NCBI GenBank assembly: GCA_002869565.1
Contig: PKUJ01000005.1
Coordinates: 1-64,000 of the forward strand
Direction of reading: 5' to 3'
Origin: Arcobacter sp.
GTDB taxonomy: Bacteria; Campylobacterota; Campylobacteria; Campylobacterales; Arcobacteraceae
DNA length: 64,000 nt
Shown here: positions 40,089 to 63,665 of the stretch, in pieces
Layout: every line of letters starts with the position of its first letter
Position numbering within the stretch: the stretch's first letter is position 1
Notes under the pieces: generated by a model
Told to the model about the DNA's origin: nothing
Seen by the model: only the letters and a program-made list of their open reading frames with translations
Database searches by the model: none
Program-made: the position numbers and the translations under genes

Positions 40089-41300
40089 TTACATCTTTAA
40101 CTTAGGTTTTGGATCTTGCATTAAAAAAACTGGTTCACTAAATGGAGCGAGTTTTGAAAGAAAGTTTAATAAAGAGATTACAGGAGAACCATAAAAGAAT
40201 TTTACATCTTGATTATACATCCAAAGTTGATCTGCGTATTGATAAACTTTATGTGGAGTATCTCCTACATTGTCAGCATTTTTATCAAAACCTTCATAAT
40301 TATCTCAATAATTACCTTCTATCTCATTTTCATCGGTTTTAGCACCTCTACTGTCATTTATAATATCTTCAATATTTCCTATTATAGAATTTCCTTTAAT
40401 TACATTATTCTCACTTAATGAGTGAAAATGAATTGCTTCAGAATTGTATAAAACTTTATTATCTTCAATCCAATTTTTGGTGTCAGGTTCAAATGGAGAT
40501 CTATCTATATAAATTCCTTGAGCATTGTAAATAACAGTATTGTCTTTTAAAGTAAAATTAGAAACATCTTTTAATCCAATACCCATGCCTGTTGCCCCTA
40601 AAGAGCTTTTTACTGTGTTCCCTATGGCAATAGTATCTTTACTGTACATAAAAAATATTCCAACTGAGTTATATTGATAGGTATTATTTTTTACATAATT
40701 TTTACCTGCATACATAAAATGTAAAGAATATCTGTTATATTCTCCAAAGTTTTCAGATATCTCATTTCCATGGGAATACCAGACTACCATATCTCTAGAT
40801 TTTACAACTTTGTTTTTTGTTACTATATTATCATTTGAATACCAAAGTCTTAAGCCATCACCTCTTAATCCTAATTCTAAATCTTTTGATGTAATATAAT
40901 TATTAGAAATAATTGAGTTATTTGTCATTGCAACATCAATTCCAAAAAGTGAATCTTCTATAATACAGTTTGAAATTTCTGATTGTTTAGAATTTGATAA
41001 TTTTATTGCGGCGTCTATTTTATCGTGTCTATCACCACTACCTCTAATTGTAAGATTTTTTAAAGTTACATATGGAGCATTAATTTGAACTACTGTTCCA
41101 ACTCCCAGTCCATCTATTATTACACCATCTTCTTTACCTATAATTGATATAGGTTTTTTTATAACAATAGAACCTTTATAAACTCCTTTTGGAAGTTTTA
41201 AAATAGAACCTTCTTCTGCATTATTAATTGCTTCTTGCAATAAATTAGCAGATAAAGAATTGAAAAATAATAAAAAGAAGGTAATAGCTATTTTAAACAT
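40089..41300 (-). pseudogene. nosD: NosD copper/sulfur maturation protein with in-frame TGA
   Basis: Read through, this is a 403-residue NosD: signal peptide (residues 1-18), then right-handed beta-helix repeats with many Asn/Gly/Ile turns, then a tail ending PKPKLKM. A TGA at 40305-40307 (codon 332) falls in EGNY-stop-DNYEGFD. NosD proteins have tryptophan at this point (GNYWDxYEGFD), so TGG to TGA is the obvious change. The last 71 codons stay in frame, with no other lesion. NosD is needed for NosZ maturation, so a real stop would probably disable nitrous oxide reduction. The distance to nosG is 10 bp. Confidence 0.8.
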
Positions 41301-42252: not shown

Positions 42253-44853
42253 TTAGAAAAGATTAGCGTTTTCGTCAACCCATTTAAGATATTCAATAAT
42301 ATCTTTTGTTTCTTCTTTGCTCATATGTTGATTAGGCATTTTTAAATTAAAGTAATCAATCATACCTTTGATATATGGATCGTTATACATAGCTTCTGGA
42401 TTAAGAATAAATCTACTTACCCAATCAATACCATTTTCATGTCTTTGTAATACACCAGTTAAATCAGGACCTGATGAAACTTTTCCTATTACGTGACATC
42501 CATTACAACCACCTTCAGCAAATGCAGTAGCTCCACGAGCTGCTGAGGCACTTTGTTTTGAAGAAATCTTCGTAACTAAAGTATCTTTTGCTCTAATACC
42601 AACGTCAGCTGTTTTAACCATTAATTGCCAAACCATACCTTGATGTAAGATAGCTTTTTCTATATCTCCATCTTTTATTGCATCTTCTGCTTTTTTCTTT
42701 TCAGCTGGGATTTGATTATATTGGTCAAATGCATCTGTAACTAAATCAGCAACTACTTTGTGTTCACCAAATTTATTATCTTTTAAGAATTTAACAACTG
42801 ATTGGATAACAGCATCTGTTGCATCATTAACTGCAACTGTTTTGTCATATTCAGCTTGTAATTCTTCCGGAGACATTGCATTGATTTTCATTTTTGTCGC
42901 ACTAATGTACTTTTTATTAGGATCTTTAACCATCATATATCCCATCATCTCTAAGTGAAGAGCTGAACAGAACTCAGTACAATAGTAAGGGAAAACGCCC
43001 TCAATATCTGCTGTAAATTCAATAGTTGTTGTTTCTCCTGGTTCTAATGATGCATGTTGATCAAATCCACCAATAGTAAATCCATGAGTTTCATCTTGAG
43101 CTCTTTCTAGATTTGTCATATGGAAAGTAACTTTGTCCCCTTTATTAACAGTAAGTCTTTCTGGGTTAATATGAGATCTAACTAATGTAGCATATACAGT
43201 TACATGGTTCCCATCTCTAACAACCCTTTCTTGACCTGCAAGTGTTTTTCCAACATGTTGTTTACCAGTTTTAGTATTTGTACCCATTTTATATCTAACA
43301 TGAGGGTGAAGTTTAGAAGCTCTAATCCCAACTGCTTGATGAGGTTCACCTAAAGGTAAAGGCATATCAACTAATAAATCCATAGTTTTACCAGTGATAT
43401 CAATTAACTGGTGGTTTTGTGGATGTAAAGGACCAACATTTTGGAATCTATCAATTGCTAATTTATTTAATGCAATGATATATTTACCTTGAGGATCAGC
43501 AGTTTTACCTTCCATTCCAGCTAAGTGACCAATGTTATAGTGTACATTTTCTTTATCTAAAACTTTTAAGTCTTTGTAATTCCATTTAACAACTTGAGAA
43601 TCTACATATAAAGAAGTATAAACTTGTCCATCTACTGGAGAATACTGAGTATGTAAAGGGCCAAGACCCAACTCTAATTGTCCATGTAAAGATTTTTTCA
43701 TATCTAAAATTGGAATACCATAAGGATCTTTTCCTATAAATTCCATTTTATCAATTTGATTTTTGATTTTTTCAAAAGAGTAAACAGATGCGTGAGTATC
43801 TAATTTACCACAAACAATCATATATTTTCCATCAGGAGAAACATCAACACCATGAGGTGATTTTGGTTCTGGAATTAGGAATAATGCGTTGTTTTTAACT
43901 GCAACTTCAATTGGAATGATATTATGACCATTTACAACTTTTACATTTTTAGGATCTTTTGCAACTTCAGCAAGTTTTTTCCAGTTATAAACATGTAAAA
44001 AGTCAGTATCATTTCTTGACATACCAGCTTCATTTGGTGGATTACCAACTTCAATTCCACCTGTATACATTTCTGTATTAAATGAGTTTGTAAATCCCCA
44101 ACCATAACTCGCACCTTTACCTGCATCACTTAAATCTTGGTGATATGGAGGCATTTCGATTGTAAAAGAGTCTTTTGGTTGAATTCGTCCGATCTTATCA
44201 TCGAAACTCCACATTGTTACACCACCTCTATATGACTCTTTATAGTCTTCTATTGGATGATAATTGTTATCATATGGTGCAGCATACTGTGATGCTTCAA
44301 TTATATATTCTGAATTTGGTGTAAAGAAAGCCCCACCATGATTTGATTTAAAAACTGGATTTGGAACAATTTGTTTTGTTTCAAAATCTTCTAAATCAAT
44401 AATTGCGATTCTAGGATTTGCTTTATCATTGATAGCTAGCCATTTACCATCATATTTTCCATCTTTTTCAGAAAGTGCAGGGTGATGAGTATCTCCCCAG
44501 TTTATTTCTCTTCCTCTAATATTTCCTTGTCTTAATATGGCTGTTGAATCTTTATCATAACCATATCCTTGCCAAGGCTCAGGTGTAAATACACCAATAT
44601 ATTTTAAAATTCTCATTGATGGAACACCATAAACAATTATTTGTCCAGATTGTCCACCAGAAGAGAATATAACATATTCATCTTTTACCCCAGTTGGATT
44701 ATAAGTTTTCGCTGCTCTTACTACATCAATCTCAGAGAGACCTCTTTCTTTCATAACTTTAGCTAATTCACCACCAGCAGTAGCTGATGCTACCGTTGCA
44801 GTAAGTGCAGTACCTAAAATTAATGAAGAAAGTTTAGTATGTATTTGTTTCAT
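42253..44853 (-). CDS. nosZ: Nitrous-oxide reductase, clade II, cytochrome c fused
   Basis: Periplasmic copper enzyme that reduces N2O to N2; 866 aa, longer than ordinary NosZ because a monohaem cytochrome c domain is fused at the C-terminus (CNGCH near residue 790). A Sec-type signal peptide (residues 1-24) replaces the Tat signal of clade I. A seven-bladed propeller supplies CuZ histidines (for example in THHP, YHQDL and HGGAFF). The cupredoxin domain holds the CuA site CTEFCSALHLEMMGYM (about 629-644). It leads the nos operon behind an FNR-type promoter. Confidence 0.96.
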   Translation of the reverse strand: MKQIHTKLSSLILGTALTATVASATAGGELAKVMKERGLSEIDVVRAAKTYNPTGVKDEYVIFSSGGQSGQIIVYGVPSMRILKYIGVFTPEPWQGYGYDKDSTAILRQGNIRGREINWGDTHHPALSEKDGKYDGKWLAINDKANPRIAIIDLEDFETKQIVPNPVFKSNHGGAFFTPNSEYIIEASQYAAPYDNNYHPIEDYKESYRGGVTMWSFDDKIGRIQPKDSFTIEMPPYHQDLSDAGKGASYGWGFTNSFNTEMYTGGIEVGNPPNEAGMSRNDTDFLHVYNWKKLAEVAKDPKNVKVVNGHNIIPIEVAVKNNALFLIPEPKSPHGVDVSPDGKYMIVCGKLDTHASVYSFEKIKNQIDKMEFIGKDPYGIPILDMKKSLHGQLELGLGPLHTQYSPVDGQVYTSLYVDSQVVKWNYKDLKVLDKENVHYNIGHLAGMEGKTADPQGKYIIALNKLAIDRFQNVGPLHPQNHQLIDITGKTMDLLVDMPLPLGEPHQAVGIRASKLHPHVRYKMGTNTKTGKQHVGKTLAGQERVVRDGNHVTVYATLVRSHINPERLTVNKGDKVTFHMTNLERAQDETHGFTIGGFDQHASLEPGETTTIEFTADIEGVFPYYCTEFCSALHLEMMGYMMVKDPNKKYISATKMKINAMSPEELQAEYDKTVAVNDATDAVIQSVVKFLKDNKFGEHKVVADLVTDAFDQYNQIPAEKKKAEDAIKDGDIEKAILHQGMVWQLMVKTADVGIRAKDTLVTKISSKQSASAARGATAFAEGGCNGCHVIGKVSSGPDLTGVLQRHENGIDWVSRFILNPEAMYNDPYIKGMIDYFNLKMPNQHMSKEETKDIIEYLKWVDENANLF

Positions 44854-57260: not shown

Positions 57261-58229
57261 TTATAAAAAAACTCCATTTTTAATATAGAAGTATATAGGA
57301 TAAAAATTAACTATTAAGGTATAAATTATAATAAATATTATTGAAGTATTATAATAAGTATTTATTTTTATTGTTTTTCTTGAAAGAATATTTGAAATTC
57401 CAATAGCAAAACCATAAAATGTACCAAGAAAGAGTGTTAGATATATTAAATAACCTATGTAATAGTATTCTTTTTGAAGCATGCAAAAAGGGCAATGGTG
57501 AGTAGGAAGTTCATAAATATATGTTCCAAAAAAGATGATTAAACTTATAATGGAAACTATTAAAAATAAGAGATTTCCAATTACATATAAAAAATCATTT
57601 TTAAGAAAATAAAATAAAATTAAAAGTAAAAATAAGGCATAAAATACTATTAAAATCAAATTTTCATTTAATGTAAATATTGAAGAAATATATGATTCAC
57701 TTGAGTTTGAATAAATTGTGCCACAGCAAGAGACTAGTTTTGTAACATCTATGGAGCTAAACATTGTTATTTCAATTATAATTTCACTTACAAATAGAAT
57801 AAATATAAAAAGATAAAAACCAAACTTTAGTTTTGTATATTTTAGTTCTTTTGTATTCATATCAAATTTATGAATAAGTAACCAAAATCCAAACAAGTAA
57901 ATATTAATCAATTTGAATAAAAGTAAATATATTCCATAACTTGTAGCATCAACAACACCTGCTGCACACATTGCTCCTGTTAATACATTTGAAATTTTAT
58001 CAAGTGTAAAAATAAAAAATATAAGTAGAAGTATTTTTATAAAAAGAATATATTTTATAATTGTAGCAGTTAAAAAACTTTGTTTTTCTAAATTGTATTG
58101 TTTCTTTGATGTTGCATTTATATCCCAGCCAAAAAATATTTTTATACTTAAAATAAAAGCAATACTTCCAAAAACTAAAAAAATTAGATTTATAATAATG
58201 ATTGTTAAAACTTCAGGAGATAATATCAT
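57261..58229 (-). CDS. Cysteine-containing polytopic membrane protein, unknown
   Basis: A 322-aa protein with about eight membrane helices. Notable cysteines are in TGAMCAAGVVDATSYG (about residues 84-99), KLVSCCGTIYS (about 164-174) and LPTHHCPFCMLQKEYYYIGY (about 244-263). The CPFC motif next to two histidines could be a thiol-redox or copper site. Last gene of the NosL-ABC operon; its start overlaps the ATPase stop by one base. No known family recognised. Confidence 0.7.
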   Translation of the reverse strand: MILSPEVLTIIIINLIFLVFGSIAFILSIKIFFGWDINATSKKQYNLEKQSFLTATIIKYILFIKILLLIFFIFTLDKISNVLTGAMCAAGVVDATSYGIYLLLFKLINIYLFGFWLLIHKFDMNTKELKYTKLKFGFYLFIFILFVSEIIIEITMFSSIDVTKLVSCCGTIYSNSSESYISSIFTLNENLILIVFYALFLLLILFYFLKNDFLYVIGNLLFLIVSIISLIIFFGTYIYELPTHHCPFCMLQKEYYYIGYLIYLTLFLGTFYGFAIGISNILSRKTIKINTYYNTSIIFIIIYTLIVNFYPIYFYIKNGVFL

Positions 58230-58897
58230 TAGATAATTTCTCCATTTGAAATTTCAATTATTTTATCTACACATTCTAAGTCAAAAAACAGAGGATCATG
58301 GGTTGCAATTATAATTGTTTTATTTTGCTCTTTTAACTCTTTTATAATATCAATAAAATGAAGAGATAACTCTTTATCTAAGTTTGCTGTTGGTTCATCA
58401 GCTAGAACAATAGTTGGATTATTTATTTGACTTCTTGCTATTGCAACTCTTTGTTGTTCCCCACCTGAAAGATTTTTGACAATATCATCTTTTTTATGTT
58501 CGATTTTAAACTTTTTCATGACATCAGATAAAAGTTTTTCTATCTCATCTGAAGATGGATTTTGAGGAATTAGCGGTAATAAAATATTCTCTTTTACCGA
58601 AATATTTGGAATCAAGTTGTACTTTTGGAAAACAAAGCCTATATGCTCTCTTCTAAAAATGGAAGAGAAATTATCAGGAAGTTTTGATATTCTATCTTCT
58701 TTTATAATAACTTCTCCAGATGTTGGTTTTGATAATCCAGCAAGTAAAGATAAAATAGTACTTTTCCCGCTTCCGCTTGAGCCTTTTAATACAACTAGTT
58801 CTCCTTCATTTATTTTTAAATTTATATCTTTTATTGCAGTTGTTATATTGTTTTTATTTACTTCATATATTTTTGTTAAGTTTTTTAATTCAATCAT
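58229..58897 (-). CDS. ABC transporter ATPase, LolD/MacB type
   Basis: A 222-aa ATPase with Walker A GSSGSGKST (about residues 37-45), Q-loop FVFQKYNL, signature LSGGEQQR, and Walker B IVLADEPTANLD. The family drives periplasmic mechanotransmission or lipoprotein release rather than classic import. Overlaps the permease gene by four bases and the membrane protein by one. Confidence 0.92.
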   Translation of the reverse strand: MIELKNLTKIYEVNKNNITTAIKDINLKINEGELVVLKGSSGSGKSTILSLLAGLSKPTSGEVIIKEDRISKLPDNFSSIFRREHIGFVFQKYNLIPNISVKENILLPLIPQNPSSDEIEKLLSDVMKKFKIEHKKDDIVKNLSGGEQQRVAIARSQINNPTIVLADEPTANLDKELSLHFIDIIKELKEQNKTIIIATHDPLFFDLECVDKIIEISNGEII

Positions 58898-60081
58898 CTT
58901 AAAACCTTATCTGTTTCAATTGTAGCACTTCTCCATGAAGGGACTAATGTTGCTGCTACATAAATAGGCACACTTAAAAAAAAGACTAGGAATAAGGTGT
59001 TAAAATCTAATACAAAAGGTAATTCAAATGATGTTTTGAGCATTGAATATCCCGTAAAAATATTACTTAAAAGAGGTGCTTGTAAAACATATACAAAAGT
59101 AAAAGCAATCAAAATTCCAGAAAGATAAGCTAAAAATGAGATAATAAAACTTTCATAAAATTTTTCTTTTAATACATCTTCTATTTTCCAACCAAGAGCT
59201 TTTAATATTCCTATCTCTTTTTTTTCTTCTGAACTTAAACCACTAATTTTGTCATAAACTATAATAAAAAAAGTGAAAATAGAGATAATAAATAGTGCTA
59301 AAAATACTCCCCCTTTATAATCGAATATATTTTGATAACTCATTTCGATATCTTTATTTGTAATTATTCTACTATCTGGAAATTTTAGTTTTATCTTTGA
59401 AGCAATTGTTAGTATCTCTTCTGGATTTGAAACTTTTACTACAATATCCGTAGCTTTGTTTTCATCCATTTCAAAAATTTCTAAAGCAGTTTGTTTTGGA
59501 AGTAGTATTATATCATTTGCTTCAAGTTGAAGAGAGCTATAGAAAACCCCAGCAATATTTACTTTTTTAAAACTACCATTTGGTTTTATAAAATTGAAAT
59601 ACTCTTTATAATAGTTTTCATCAAGTATTTTTTTTACACCGCTTCCTACAATCATCGAGTTGCTTTCTAAAGCTTTTGAAAAATCATTCTCTTTTATGAT
59701 TTTATTTAAAGAGTTTTTATATTGATTTTCAAATTCATCAATTCCTATAATAGAGAAGTTTACCCCTGCATTTTCAAAATAATAATATCCCCAAACTCTT
59801 GCTATTGCATCTTCTACTCCTGCAATACCAATAATCTCATCAATTACATCAATATCTATATCATAATGACGTCCTGCTTTTAACTTTTGAATAGTTATAT
59901 CAGGAAGCGATTTTAAAGTAAGATCAAGTTCATATTTTATGGAATTTGATATAAAAAATACAGAAGCTAAGATTGAAGTTAAAAGTGTAAAAATTACTAA
60001 TATAAAGCCATTTTTAAATTTTTGTCTTAATAAAGAATTGATTGCATACTCTATTAAGTATAGATTGATTTTATTACTCAT
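58894..60081 (-). CDS. FtsX-family ABC permease
   Basis: A 395-aa permease with one N-terminal helix, a periplasmic MacB-PCD-like domain (about residues 50-255) and three C-terminal helices. The cytosolic loop EKKEIGILKALGWKIEDVL is the FtsX/LolC coupling region. Pairs with the adjacent LolD-type ATPase. Substrate unknown; the NosL proteins in the operon point to copper or protein maturation. Confidence 0.9.
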   Translation of the reverse strand: MSNKINLYLIEYAINSLLRQKFKNGFILVIFTLLTSILASVFFISNSIKYELDLTLKSLPDITIQKLKAGRHYDIDIDVIDEIIGIAGVEDAIARVWGYYYFENAGVNFSIIGIDEFENQYKNSLNKIIKENDFSKALESNSMIVGSGVKKILDENYYKEYFNFIKPNGSFKKVNIAGVFYSSLQLEANDIILLPKQTALEIFEMDENKATDIVVKVSNPEEILTIASKIKLKFPDSRIITNKDIEMSYQNIFDYKGGVFLALFIISIFTFFIIVYDKISGLSSEEKKEIGILKALGWKIEDVLKEKFYESFIISFLAYLSGILIAFTFVYVLQAPLLSNIFTGYSMLKTSFELPFVLDFNTLFLVFFLSVPIYVAATLVPSWRSATIETDKVLR

Positions 60082-60391
60082 TTATTACCTTTGAAGGGGT
60101 ATTATTTAAAATATGAGAGTGTGAATATATAAAAGTACTAGGAAAATACTCTCTTAACTCTGGACTATCTTTAAATATAGAAAAAGTATTACTTAAAGTT
60201 CTATGTCTAATATACATAGCTTCATTTGAAGTACTTAAATCAGGAAGCCCTATGGCTTTTAATAAAATATTTTTTTCTAAAATATTTTTTTTATTCAAAC
60301 TTTTATTTATTTGTAAATAAATTACTTCAAGAGTAATTGTACAGATGGCTATTGATATTATAAATAATAGATATTTACTTTTTTTATTCAT
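60074..60391 (-). CDS. Small membrane-anchored protein, unknown
   Basis: A 105-aa protein with one N-terminal helix (YLLFIISIAICTITLEVIYL) and a periplasmic part with several histidines (YIRHRTLSNTF and YSHSH). It lies between the double-NosL protein and the permease, overlapping both (8 bp on each side). It may link the two or offer a metal-binding patch. No family recognised. Confidence 0.65.
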   Translation of the reverse strand: MNKKSKYLLFIISIAICTITLEVIYLQINKSLNKKNILEKNILLKAIGLPDLSTSNEAMYIRHRTLSNTFSIFKDSPELREYFPSTFIYSHSHILNNTPSKVINE

Positions 60392-61541
60392 CTAATTTGT
60401 AAACTTCTTCTTCTAATATTTTATCAAAATGTAGGATTTTTGTTCCTTCATGATCTTTTTTAAATGTTAAGGCATCCTTCTTTTTAATAAAAGGTATAAG
60501 CTCATTTCCCATTGGTCCATAGACATTTGAACCAACTACATAATAGGCTTTTTTACCATCAATTCCTTTTTGTGAATAATAATCAGTTACTAAAATTTCG
60601 ATAGGCATTTGTTTATTAATTTTATAATTTCCCCATTTATTTGGATTAAAATAAAATTTCATTAAATCTTTTACTCCATCAAAAGAGAAGTCATGCTTAT
60701 GGTCATCATGTGTATAAAAGATTTTTGCTGCCCATCTTGGATATTTTGATACAAACATTCCACAAACAGGGCATTTTTCATCTTCTTTTACTTGTACTCT
60801 ATTTTCTATTGTATCTAATACACCAAGTTTTTTTACATCCCAAAGATAAAGTGCTACAGCTTGAAGTTTTGATTCATCTAGTTTTTTACATAAATTATTC
60901 TTTTTTATATCTGCTTTTAGTTCATTTATTTCAAGATACATTGTAGGGTCAATGTCTTGATTACAAAGTTTCTCAAATATTTTTTTACCCTTTGGATAAA
61001 CTTTTTTTATTTTTTTATTTTTTATAAATGAACTATCTTCTTTTAGTGTTTCTTTAGCTTTATTAAAAGCTTCTTCAAAAGAATAGACTTTTCCACCGTA
61101 CTTTTTAATAAATTCATTAGCATCTTCATTTTTTTCAAATGCTAGTTTACTAACTTTACTCATAGTTCCTTTTATTTTACTTCCAATTACATAAAATGCT
61201 TTTTTAGCGTCTATTATTTTTTCGCTTTTAACATCAATTACTTTCATAAGACTTTTATCTATTCCATACTCTTCATCATCTTTAGTTAGGCACCTGATTG
61301 AACAATACTGTCTATTTGTACCATTTTTCAATTTTGCAATATATGATGTTTTATAATGTTTCTTTATACTCATTCCACAAATAGGACACCAAAGTTTTTC
61401 TTCACCTTTTTGAGTGTAAGTAGGTTCTTTTGTCACTTCTTTTGAAAAATCTTTTGCATTTAAATTAGTTAGTAATACTGTAAATAAAAATAGAAAAAGA
61501 AGTTTTTTTGCTGTAATTAGAATAATATTTTGTTTTACCAT
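60384..61541 (-). CDS. Double NosL-domain periplasmic protein
   Basis: About 385 aa. The first NosL domain has WCPICGMSIKKHYKTSY followed by YCSIRC. The second has CPVCGMFVSKYPRWAAKI with a HDDHKHDF loop. Between them lies a degenerate cytochrome c-like segment (GKKIFEKLC ... NNLCKKLDESKLQAVALYL) without a CxxCH. The start is set at MVKQN (61541), with AAAGGG upstream; an upstream ATG at 61568 overlaps the -10 element. It leads the five-gene operon with the ABC transporter. Confidence 0.85.
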   Translation of the reverse strand: MVKQNIILITAKKLLFLFLFTVLLTNLNAKDFSKEVTKEPTYTQKGEEKLWCPICGMSIKKHYKTSYIAKLKNGTNRQYCSIRCLTKDDEEYGIDKSLMKVIDVKSEKIIDAKKAFYVIGSKIKGTMSKVSKLAFEKNEDANEFIKKYGGKVYSFEEAFNKAKETLKEDSSFIKNKKIKKVYPKGKKIFEKLCNQDIDPTMYLEINELKADIKKNNLCKKLDESKLQAVALYLWDVKKLGVLDTIENRVQVKEDEKCPVCGMFVSKYPRWAAKIFYTHDDHKHDFSFDGVKDLMKFYFNPNKWGNYKINKQMPIEILVTDYYSQKGIDGKKAYYVVGSNVYGPMGNELIPFIKKKDALTFKKDHEGTKILHFDKILEEEVYKLDE

Positions 61542-61566
61542 AAAGAATATGCCCTTTGTTAAAAAC

Positions 61567-61601
61567 ATTATATTATCAAAAAATTGTTAATTTTATGTTA
61601 A
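61567..61601 (-). promoter_or_regulatory. OmpR-type box and -10 upstream of the double-NosL gene
   Basis: On the minus strand TTAACAT-AAAA-TTAACAA (61601-61584) is a direct repeat with 11-bp period, 11 bp before TATAAT (61572-61567). OmpR/PhoB-family regulators bind such repeats in place of a -35 element. Confidence 0.55.
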
Positions 61602-61615
61602 CGAAAAGACAAGGA

Positions 61616-61647
61616 TTAATACTAATTTAACATTTTTAAAATATAAT
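61616..61647 (+). promoter_or_regulatory. OmpR-type box and -10 upstream of NosL gene at 61673
   Basis: TTAATAC-TAAT-TTAACAT (61616-61633) has the same 11-bp period as the divergent box, 8 bp before TATAAT (61642-61647). The first half-site is degenerate. Confidence 0.45.
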
Positions 61648-61672
61648 TATCAAAAATTATGGGACTATATAA

Positions 61673-62176
61673 ATGAAAAAAGCATTACCTATTTTAACAA
61701 TTTTAATTTTTATTGGAATAATAATTGGAATTTTTTTATCTATGTCTAGTCAAAAACAAATGGTTGTGATTTATGAAAATAATCATAAGCATAAGCCTGT
61801 TGATATTAAACTTAGTCATTTTCAAGATACTCAATGTGGCATGACACTTAGTAAGCTTGAAGATTCAGTGCAGGCAATATCCCCTGATGGTAAAACTTGG
61901 TTTTTTGATGATATAGGTTGTTTCGCTTTATGGTATAAAAATATTTCATTTCAAAAAGATGTAATAATTTGGGTATATACTAGAGATACAAAAGAGTATA
62001 TACGTGCAAGAGAAGCTTGGTACACACAAACAGATAAAACAGAAATGGGATATGGTTTTGCTTCACATAAAATTAAAAAAGAGAAAATGATTTCTTTTGA
62101 TGATATGATTCTTAAAATGTTTCGTGGAGAAAATATGAAGAATCCCCTAATTAGAAAAAAATTGTTAGGTTATTAA
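61673..62176 (+). CDS. NosL-family membrane-anchored protein
   Basis: A 167-aa protein with an N-terminal membrane anchor (about residues 5-24) and a NosL domain: TQCGMTLSKLEDSVQAI, then FDDIGCFALWY and GYGFASHKI, close to the nosL at 36187. The motif keeps one cysteine and CGM rather than CxxCxM. It overlaps the next gene by one base, so it is coupled to a putative metal transporter. Confidence 0.85.
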   Translation: MKKALPILTILIFIGIIIGIFLSMSSQKQMVVIYENNHKHKPVDIKLSHFQDTQCGMTLSKLEDSVQAISPDGKTWFFDDIGCFALWYKNISFQKDVIIWVYTRDTKEYIRAREAWYTQTDKTEMGYGFASHKIKKEKMISFDDMILKMFRGENMKNPLIRKKLLGY

Positions 62177-62886
62177 TGGAAAGCATAAGTATATTAAGTA
62201 TTATTACAATTGCATTTCTAGGTTCTTTTGGGCATTGTGTGGGAATGTGTGGCGGCATAGTTGTAGCTTATTCAAGTACAAAGATTGGACACAAATGGTC
62301 TAAAACCAAACAATCAATTTCTCACCTTTTATACTCTTTTGGAAGAATTACTACTTATACAATCCTTGGAGCACTGTTTGGTTTCGTTGGTGGAGTTGTA
62401 ACTTTTGATAATATAACTAGTGGAATACTACTTCTTTCAACAGGTTTTATTATGATTTTAATAGGATTATCTTTAAGTGGTAAATTTAAATTTATTACTA
62501 ACTTAGAACATTCAATCTCAAAAACTAATATTTATAGAACTACTTTTAAATCTTTAGTAGGTTCTGAAACTATGACAAGTTTTTATCTGCTTGGAATGCT
62601 AAATGGACTTTTACCTTGTGGTTTTGTGTATGTATTTGCAATTACAGCTGCTAGTACAGGAAGTCCATTATGGGGAGCTTTTGTTATGTTTATTTTTGGA
62701 TTAAGTACTTTGCCTGCTCTTTTTTCTTTGGGATTTTTTGTTGGAGTATTTAAACAAATTACTTTAAGAAATCTTTTTATTAAATTAGCATCAATTTTAG
62801 TAATTGGATTTGGTATTTATATTATGTACAATGGTTATGAATATATCACTGACCCAAATAAAACTATTTTAAGTTGCCATATCTAA
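62176..62886 (+). CDS. SafE/TauE-like membrane transporter (COG2836 type)
   Basis: A 236-aa protein with six membrane helices. The N-terminal FGHCVGMCGGIVVAYS motif (about residues 15-30) is the hallmark of a group often found with copper and cytochrome oxidase genes. YSFGRITTYTILGALFG and LLPCGFVYVFAITAAS (with conserved Pro-Cys) support the assignment. Copper or thiol transport is inferred from the cysteines and the NosL neighbours on both sides. Confidence 0.8.
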   Translation: MESISILSIITIAFLGSFGHCVGMCGGIVVAYSSTKIGHKWSKTKQSISHLLYSFGRITTYTILGALFGFVGGVVTFDNITSGILLLSTGFIMILIGLSLSGKFKFITNLEHSISKTNIYRTTFKSLVGSETMTSFYLLGMLNGLLPCGFVYVFAITAASTGSPLWGAFVMFIFGLSTLPALFSLGFFVGVFKQITLRNLFIKLASILVIGFGIYIMYNGYEYITDPNKTILSCHI

Positions 62887-62969: not shown

Positions 62970-63665
62970 ATGAAGAAAATTATATTAGTAGGTTTATCCA
63001 TGTTAATTTTGGGTTTTAGTGCTTTTGCCACAGAAGAGATGAAAAAGCCTAAAATGCAATACCAAGCAGTCCCAATGGAAAAGGTTACTTTGGTTCAAAA
63101 AGGTGAGTCTAAAAAATATTGTCCAGTTTGTGGTATGACATTACCAATGTTCTACAAAACTTCACATGCCGCTAAACACGTTGGTGAAGATAAACAATAT
63201 TGTTCAATTCACTGTTTAGTTGAAGACAAAGAAGTAAATGGGTCTGAGTTAACAGACATAAAAGTTGTTGATAATAAAAGTTTAAAATTAGTTGATGCAA
63301 AAAAAGCTTTTTATGTTGTAGGAAGTTCTAAACCTGGGACTATGACTATGGTTAGTAAATATGCTTTTGAAAAAGAATCAGATGCTAAAGCTTTTGCATC
63401 TGAAAATGGTGGAGAACTTAAAAATTTCGATGAAGTTTATGCAATGGTTTCAAAAGGAATGGAAAAAGAGAAAGCTATGATTGCAAAAAGACAAAAGAAA
63501 ATGCAAATGATGGGAGAAAAAGTTTATAACAAAATGTGTAAAAAGACTGATAAAAAATTTACATCAGTTGCTGATGCAAAATCTTTTGTAGCAAAAAACA
63601 AACTTTGTGGAGAGATGCAAGGTAAAAAACTCCAAGCAGTTGGTATTTATTTAGGAAGAAGATAA
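62970..63665 (+). CDS. NosL-like periplasmic protein with degenerate cytochrome-like tail
   Basis: A 231-aa exported protein (signal peptide to residue 20). Its domain YCPVCGMTLPMFYKTSHAA, YCSIHC and VDAKKAFYVVGS closely matches the first domain of the protein at 60384. The C-terminal segment GEKVYNKMC ... KNKLCGEMQGKKLQAVGIYL is cytochrome c-like but has no CxxCH. RBS GGAG precedes the ATG. A strong terminator follows. Confidence 0.85.
   Translation: MKKIILVGLSMLILGFSAFATEEMKKPKMQYQAVPMEKVTLVQKGESKKYCPVCGMTLPMFYKTSHAAKHVGEDKQYCSIHCLVEDKEVNGSELTDIKVVDNKSLKLVDAKKAFYVVGSSKPGTMTMVSKYAFEKESDAKAFASENGGELKNFDEVYAMVSKGMEKEKAMIAKRQKKMQMMGEKVYNKMCKKTDKKFTSVADAKSFVAKNKLCGEMQGKKLQAVGIYLGRR

Follow-up and report, generated by a model that had tools for sequence, protein, structure and literature searches.

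This locus carries, next to NosL-type genes, a second ATP-binding cassette (ABC) gene pair in a bacterium that already has NosDFYL. Copper supply limits nitrous oxide reduction, and to our knowledge no ABC system other than NosDFYL is usually credited with providing it. The stretch analysed, hereafter the window, comprises the first 64 kb of contig C8 in the 3.49 Mb genome of an Arcobacter sp.; it contains all five NosL matches of the genome and, besides NosDFYL, a differently built module in which a double-NosL gene is followed by genes for a small protein, an FtsX-type permease, a LolD-type ATPase and a cysteine-rich membrane protein. We favour, with a probability of roughly 0.6, the view that this module is an ABC-driven system for NosL-dependent copper transfer (or for keeping the thiols involved) that works in parallel to NosDFYL.

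The module consists of five minus-strand open reading frames (ORFs) running from 61568 down to 57261, with ends that overlap by 8, 8, 4 and 1 bases. A first-pass annotation of this DNA had described five genes with overlapping ends and the motifs MCAAG, SCCG and HHCPFC; the ORF list agrees with it, and all three motifs are found in the fifth protein. Position 61541, where that annotation placed the limit of the operon, is an in-frame methionine at residue 10 of the 394-aa ORF, and either 61568 or 61541 is a possible start. The five genes are:

60384 to 61568, minus strand: double-NosL protein P0001, 394 aa (Pfam NosL 8.9e-52, in two stretches)
60074 to 60391, minus strand: small protein P0002 (P2), 105 aa, with one hydrophobic helix and no Pfam family
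58894 to 60081, minus strand: permease P0003 (P3), 395 aa (Pfam FtsX 8.7e-13), modelled with a type VII (LolE/MacB) fold and a periplasmic domain
58229 to 58897, minus strand: ATPase P0004 (P4), 222 aa, of the LolD/FtsE type (Pfam ABC_tran 9.7e-37)
57261 to 58229, minus strand: P0005 (P5), 322 aa, a predicted eight-helix membrane protein with no Pfam family

Among the NCBIfam families, P3 is nearest to LolCE and P4 to LolD, with scores below the equivalog cut-offs in both cases (56.9-57.6 bits versus 362.45 for LolC/LolE, and 201.8 bits versus 307.75 for LolD). A better LolCE match of this genome, at C16:165751, reaches 273.6 bits and is itself below the cut-off. The structural model of P3 (mfe4b9baf3c4b, pLDDT 80.7) resembles LolE (Foldseek 5.7e-16; VIA Z 23.8, with 368 residues aligned at 5.8 A), MacB coming behind with a VIA Z of about 16. 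Judged from this model, P3 is a type VII ABC permease, and the FtsX-type permease fold, the periplasmic domain and the LolD/FtsE-type ATPase that characterise this superfamily were all recognised in P3 and P4. Type VII ABC systems normally perform mechanical work in the periplasm.

No match to P5 was obtained in Pfam, NCBIfam or PDB sequences, either with single sequences or with a 33-row profile, save for a weak COX4_pro_2 match (0.0018) in one of the 33 relatives. The AlphaFold2 model of P5 has eight long helices (mean pLDDT 90) and gave no Foldseek match at E <= 0.001; on the question of a VKOR/DsbB-like four-helix core, the VIA rows were mostly generic helical bundles that name no family. 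The cysteines C88 (MC), C168-C169 (CC) and C246/C249 (HxCP[FY]C) are kept in 137/137 P5 homologues of at least 300 aa, three of which differ only at a residue adjoining a cysteine. In a 45-row alignment, the loops bearing these cysteines contain on average 0.84, 1.36 and 0.93 lysines plus arginines, compared to 2.56, 3.71, 1.73 and 2.18 in the other four loops. Since the cysteine-bearing loops are poor in positive charges, all five cysteines are predicted by the positive-inside rule to lie on the periplasmic side.

P5 was detected in 106 of the 298 sampled genomes, leaving 192 without a match, and none was found in the plasmids and viral contigs searched. Beyond Campylobacterota, the phylum of L088 (a Neomarinimicrobiota metagenome-assembled genome) was sampled, and elsewhere a single P5 pattern scan of genome contigs was made; P5 is present in 3/120 genomes of L088's phylum, that of L088 included (L088, L195, L196), with a nos_propeller match in one of the three and MccA in none. 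As far as these comparisons go, P5 is a family of the phylum Campylobacterota that is new to Pfam, NCBIfam and PDB, and in these databases the membrane protein gave no match to a known unrelated family, a prospect that the first-pass annotation had considered.

The gene order around P5 is conserved. Neighbours were counted for the 139 P5 genes with a length of 250 aa or more that loci L031-L170 contain, some species being represented by two loci. Of 104 relatives from a scan of genome contigs with P5, the best 80 make up L031-L110, and the P5 of L163 is absent from both the neighbourhood counts and the tree described below, a longer overlapping frame having been taken there. LolD lies directly upstream of P5 in 127/132 loci with enough sequence, FtsX and LolD together precede it in 115/127, and a NosL-type gene is found upstream in 85/120. 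Since LolD and FtsX plus LolD recur in this position across loci, the arrangement is not due to chance. On the 3' side of P5, a homologue of the 167-aa protein listed below is present in 67/132 loci and a DsbD_2 homologue in 22/132. Whereas the corresponding genes (61673-62886) are divergent from the module in the window, elsewhere their homologues run on after P5 in one series, and therefore the unit reaches beyond 57261-61541. In the window, this second arm is arranged as follows:

61569 to 61672, no strand: intergenic spacer separating the module's two divergent arms, from the ORF positions
61673 to 62176, plus strand: 167-aa protein, a divergent NosL homologue by profile comparison with the double-NosL protein
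62176 to 62886, plus strand: DsbD_2 (PF13386) membrane protein (Pfam 6.3e-49)
62970 to 63665, plus strand: 231-aa NosL protein (Pfam NosL 2e-17)

P0001 contains a NosL-like domain (CPICGM, CSIRC), a middle domain and then a NosL domain (CPVCGM ... VYGPMG), and C266, C269 and M271 are invariant in its 30-row alignment; by eye, its signal peptide has no lipobox cysteine. The profile of the 167-aa family matches that of the double-NosL protein with a probability of 97 and an E value of 1e-10, and 7 of its 27 members match Pfam NosL (best 1.1e-5; the window copy gives no match), which identifies the family as a divergent NosL. HCxGMCGG and PCG are invariant in the DsbD_2 protein family. P2 has an N-terminal hydrophobic helix (by eye) and a tail of about 75 aa with a conserved RHR motif, and K40, L49, D51, R62 and R64 are invariant in 21 rows; it may be a fast-evolving fixed partner.

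Some further observations concern these proteins and their surroundings. The middle of the double-NosL protein (window 60800-61010) and the C terminus of the 231-aa NosL protein (the end of 62970-63665) both look, by eye, like a cytochrome c domain that has lost its CxxCH. In loci L111, L130, L134, L136, L137 and L162, which have no recognised P2, small proteins with a hydrophobic N terminus were noticed by eye upstream of FtsX. Between the module and norCB, the window carries at 54260-57168 genes for a 110-aa protein, a 415-aa protein, FeS_assembly_P, a DUF2269-like and a COX3-like protein, and homologues of the first three also occur near a module in L168.

The P5 neighbourhoods of genomes lacking nosZ revealed a second setting for the module, the 3' end of the mcc operon. 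Here, going by the families of representative proteins, genes for an FKBP isomerase, a 4Fe-4S protein, NrfD, a ResB/CcsA-type cytochrome c assembly protein and a Sel1-repeat protein are followed by NosL-FtsX-LolD-P5 and the 167-aa gene. In L149, the gene at the head of the operon codes for an octaheme protein (seven CxxCH motifs plus one CX15CH) that matches the heme c-copper sulfite reductase MccA of PDB 4rkm with an E value of 0. Taking as true MccA the proteins with at least 62% identity to this query, MccA is present in 48 of the 298 genomes, and P5 is present in all 48. In 47 of them, P5 lies within 16 kb of MccA, and in the remaining one (G182) it stands at a contig end. This association, which spans seven genera and four families (p 4.6e-26, without kinship correction), is the tightest found and was absent from the first-pass annotation. 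Over 691 aa, the MccA of genome G167 has the same sequence as the crystallised protein 4rkm, and for this reason G167 is taken to be Wolinella succinogenes; NosL-FtsX-LolD-P5 is located downstream of its mccA. MccA-type sulfite reductase has been listed as a cuproenzyme (PMC7558416, citing Hermann 2015).

None of 12 genomes with MccA and without nosZ gave a match to the NosD of the window (E <= 1e-10), while all eight nosZ-containing controls did; therefore, the module stands in those genomes without NosDFY. A Shewanella gene table shows nosL and nosY after sirD (PMC5955497), and Shewanella SirA is assigned to the MccA family (PMC6976685). A single enzyme family thus seems to be paired with a Nos-type ABC system in one group and with the present module in another. 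An ABC partner of MccA in Campylobacterota did not turn up in the literature searches, which covered open-licence papers, and no MccA was found in the plasmids searched.

The two settings are largely separated in a tree of 138 P5 sequences. One clade of 75 (support 0.94) holds 20/23 nos-linked copies, and a clade of 55 (support 1.0) holds 18/18 verified mcc-linked copies together with three nos-linked ones; a clade of eight carries neither label. L076 and L089 were not counted as mcc-linked, as they have only a generic 4Fe-4S protein. A second, divergent module of G167 (L162:4431-9918) is clustered with CcoG (FixG_C, Fer4_18), which is listed as a Cu(II) reductase (PMC7558416), and with a SLAC1-family channel. 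Some modules stand amid unrelated genes.

As for nitrous oxide reductase, nosZ occurs in 88/298 genomes and together with P5 in 67/298 (odds ratio 14). P5 lies within 20 kb of nosZ at 16/125 P5 places, and several loci of the Sulfurimonas type show the module directly adjoining nosL, nosY, nosF, nosH, nosG, nosD and nosZ. The window likewise holds nosL, an ABC2 permease gene (NosY) and nor genes, in addition to:

42253 to 44853, minus strand: NosZ with a C-terminal cytochrome c domain, the likely client (nos_propeller 1.5e-30, Cytochrom_C 9.3e-7)
40305 to 41300, minus strand: NosD of the parallel NosDFYL system (5.7e-36)

Altogether, 79 of the 106 P5 genomes contain nosZ or true MccA, and the module is thus not confined mainly to genomes lacking copper enzymes, an outcome that would have spoken against the first-pass annotation. 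The interpretation given there is supported in part: the view that the ABC module is of another build and belongs with copper enzymes holds, as does, by linkage, the suggestion of NosZ as one likely client. Copper nitrite reductase was also considered as a client. Only one of the 298 genomes has a match above the cut-off (G294, one of the P5 genomes that lack both nosZ and MccA). A further 108 matches fall below it, many of them in frames of NosZ or multicopper oxidase size; with a single genome above the cut-off, this enzyme cannot explain the distribution of P5.

Since copper is common to NosL, MccA, NosZ and, in one case, CcoG, and since type VII ABC systems do mechanical work, we propose that the module forms an inner-membrane machine in which cytoplasmic ATP would serve to pass Cu(I) carried by NosL-type chaperones on to periplasmic copper enzymes just after their export. 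It would act in the manner of NosDFY with NosL, though through another ABC fold. MccA would be the clearest client, in one clade, and NosZ a probable one in the clade to which the window belongs. P3 and P4 would pump no solute; instead, ATP-driven closure would set the periplasmic domain of P3 in motion, which in turn would power transfer among the double-NosL protein, P5 and the apo-enzyme, or reset thiols for transfer. P5 would offer C88, C168-C169 and HxC246PxC249 at the periplasmic face, acting either as a relay for Cu(I) or as a keeper of chaperone thiols, P2 could couple the partners, and the DsbD_2 protein might supply reductant or copper. Observed here are the gene order, the distribution, the conservation, the P3 fold, the topology predicted for P5 with its invariant cysteines and the linkage to nosZ and mccA; movement of copper, its direction, mechanical coupling and any role of P2 or P5 are inferred. 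It is also possible, at somewhat less than even odds, that the module is a second, independently evolved metal-insertion ABC system, which joins the mechanotransmission class with NosL and a cysteine-rich P5 relay, was recruited for two unrelated copper enzymes, MccA and NosZ, and is able to replace NosDFY.

Several results weigh against copper transfer to MccA and NosZ. All co-occurrence counts were made without kinship correction and are inflated by shared ancestry, metal binding by P5 is putative, and 35/120 loci have no recognised NosL-type gene upstream of P5. Both nosZ and true MccA are missing from 27/106 P5 genomes (seven of which have a strong norB and one a copper nitrite reductase), and 21/88 nosZ genomes lack P5. 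The distribution of the nitric oxide reductase cNOR also belongs here. A strong, cNOR-type norB (at least 260 bits) was found in 47/298 genomes; one of them, in G239, matches a solved cNOR at 2.7e-99, and nine tested against NCBIfam received no name. Of the 250 genomes that lack MccA, 35 have both norB and P5, 12 norB only, 23 P5 only and 180 neither (odds ratio 23, p 1.8e-17), and in the same order of classes the association holds both with nosZ (28/9/3/12) and without it (7/3/20/168). For nosZ and P5, the corresponding counts in genomes lacking norB and MccA are 3/12/20/168 (odds ratio 2.1, p 0.39), and among norB-containing genomes without MccA the odds ratio is 1.3 (p 0.7). Hence, where MccA is absent, cNOR predicts P5 better than nosZ does, which somewhat lowers our confidence in the proposal and in the idea of a second, independently evolved system, and the link to nosZ rests mainly on position, since its association with P5 fades once MccA and cNOR are set aside.

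The MccA paralogues belong to the same group of results. A paralogue with 44-51% identity was found in 37 genomes, 32 of which have no P5, while the other five have it elsewhere in the genome; at 13 paralogue loci (L171-L183), no module gene (NosL, ABC or P5) was detected by BLAST. We expected such module-less paralogues to have lost the two extra cysteines, which we take to be copper ligands. This expectation failed, as 13/13 keep both, a result that speaks against the simple reading. An MccA-like octaheme protein can therefore occur where the module is missing.

The paralogue loci have a further feature. In 13/13, the paralogue (seven CxxCH) shares the locus with a six-CxxCH protein (e.g. 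L171:5920-9968); a rhodanese domain was recognised in the single such protein tested, and 3/5 paralogue loci looked at have a CcsBA homologue nearby. In Dethiobacter, SirA/MccA-like octahemes have been described beside rhodanese proteins (PMC10376724).

Among the other explanations, the one that survives best is that P5 is a DsbB/VKOR-like or reductase-like protein that sets the redox state of the NosL CxxC motifs and of the enzyme cysteines, the chaperones alone transferring the copper. The CPxC and the vicinal cysteine pair predicted to be periplasmic in all 137 homologues would suit such a role, as would the neighbouring DsbD_2 protein with its invariant cysteines and the richness of the double-NosL protein in CxxC. 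However, the number of invariant cysteines in P5 is odd (five), neither sequence searches nor Foldseek (E <= 0.001) connected P5 to a solved protein, and a redox role alone leaves the ABC pair unexplained. We consider this explanation unlikely, though it deserves some weight.

A second possibility is that, in the clade of the window, the module works for nitric oxide reduction or for life in the presence of nitric oxide, through cNOR or an associated protein, and not for NosZ. cNOR had been named as a client in the first-pass annotation, and the distribution supports this part of the claim, with the strong norB-P5 association in MccA-less genomes irrespective of nosZ and with a norB that matches a solved cNOR; moreover, nor genes adjoin the module in the window as well as in its relatives L031 and L035. 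Position does not support it: the window's copy is the only P5 within 20 kb of a strong norB (one more lies within 50 kb), compared to 16 P5 places near nosZ, and none of the 48 MccA genomes has a norB match of at least 260 bits. That genera such as g30 have no norB match and g11 weak ones only had at first seemed to tell against cNOR, but as a statement on distribution this is overturned by the counts in MccA-less genomes. The active site of cNOR contains iron, not copper, whereas the NosL domains favour copper. We read the cNOR signal as a likely mark of full denitrifiers, which are home to the nos-linked copies. All in all, service to nitric oxide reduction seems improbable to us.

Still less probable is a general system for export of, or tolerance to, copper or another metal that merely lies near respiratory genes. 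The 27 P5 genomes devoid of nosZ and MccA and the modules found amid unrelated genes would fit it, but the 47/48 linkages to mcc, the specialisation of the clades and the NosL domains indicate a client enzyme, and 192 of the 298 genomes do without P5. Finally, a LolCDE-like system releasing chaperone lipoproteins, to which the closeness of the P3 fold to LolE and of P4 to LolD might point, can hardly be upheld, because neither protein reaches the cut-off of its family (LolCE for P3, LolD for P4), a better LolCE match exists elsewhere in the genome, at C16, and by eye P0001 shows no lipobox cysteine.

Turning back to copper transfer driven by the ABC pair, the module can be compared with systems already known. 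It shares with NosDFYL, which assembles the CuZ site of nitrous oxide reductase, a NosL-type Cu(I) chaperone and an ABC pair near nosZ, acting (here, by proposal) for a periplasmic copper enzyme; it differs in having a LolE/MacB-type permease and P5 where NosDFYL has an ABC2-type NosY and the beta-helix protein NosD, and no NosD match was found with Pfam in its five genes. Permease fold and ATPase type are those of LolCDE, MacB and FtsEX (type VII ABC), but the present module has a single permease gene, and its partners are a cysteine-rich eight-helix protein and NosL chaperones. In the mcc cluster of Wolinella succinogenes, reportedly described by Kern et al. in 2011, the 3' part of the operon is made up of a copy of the module (G167), whereas the copy in the window has P2, is placed near a nos cluster and falls in a different clade of P5. 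A NosL homologue of the mcc cluster is reported to have been named MccL.

A trace of the module can be found in earlier work, since a five-gene insertion between nosL and nosY (ABC permease, ATPase and three hypothetical proteins) is listed, without explanation, in the nos clusters of Sulfurospirillum cavolei (PMC4794192); judged from its gene content, this insertion is probably the present module. Copper assembly by an ABC system plus NosL is already known as a kind, and what is new here is one protein family, P5. If the proposal is true, there would be a second ABC route, which is found beside mccA without NosDFY and elsewhere beside nosZ and which would give simple genetic access to ATP-driven metal insertion, and the module would be a candidate for the assembly machinery of the heme-copper site of MccA.

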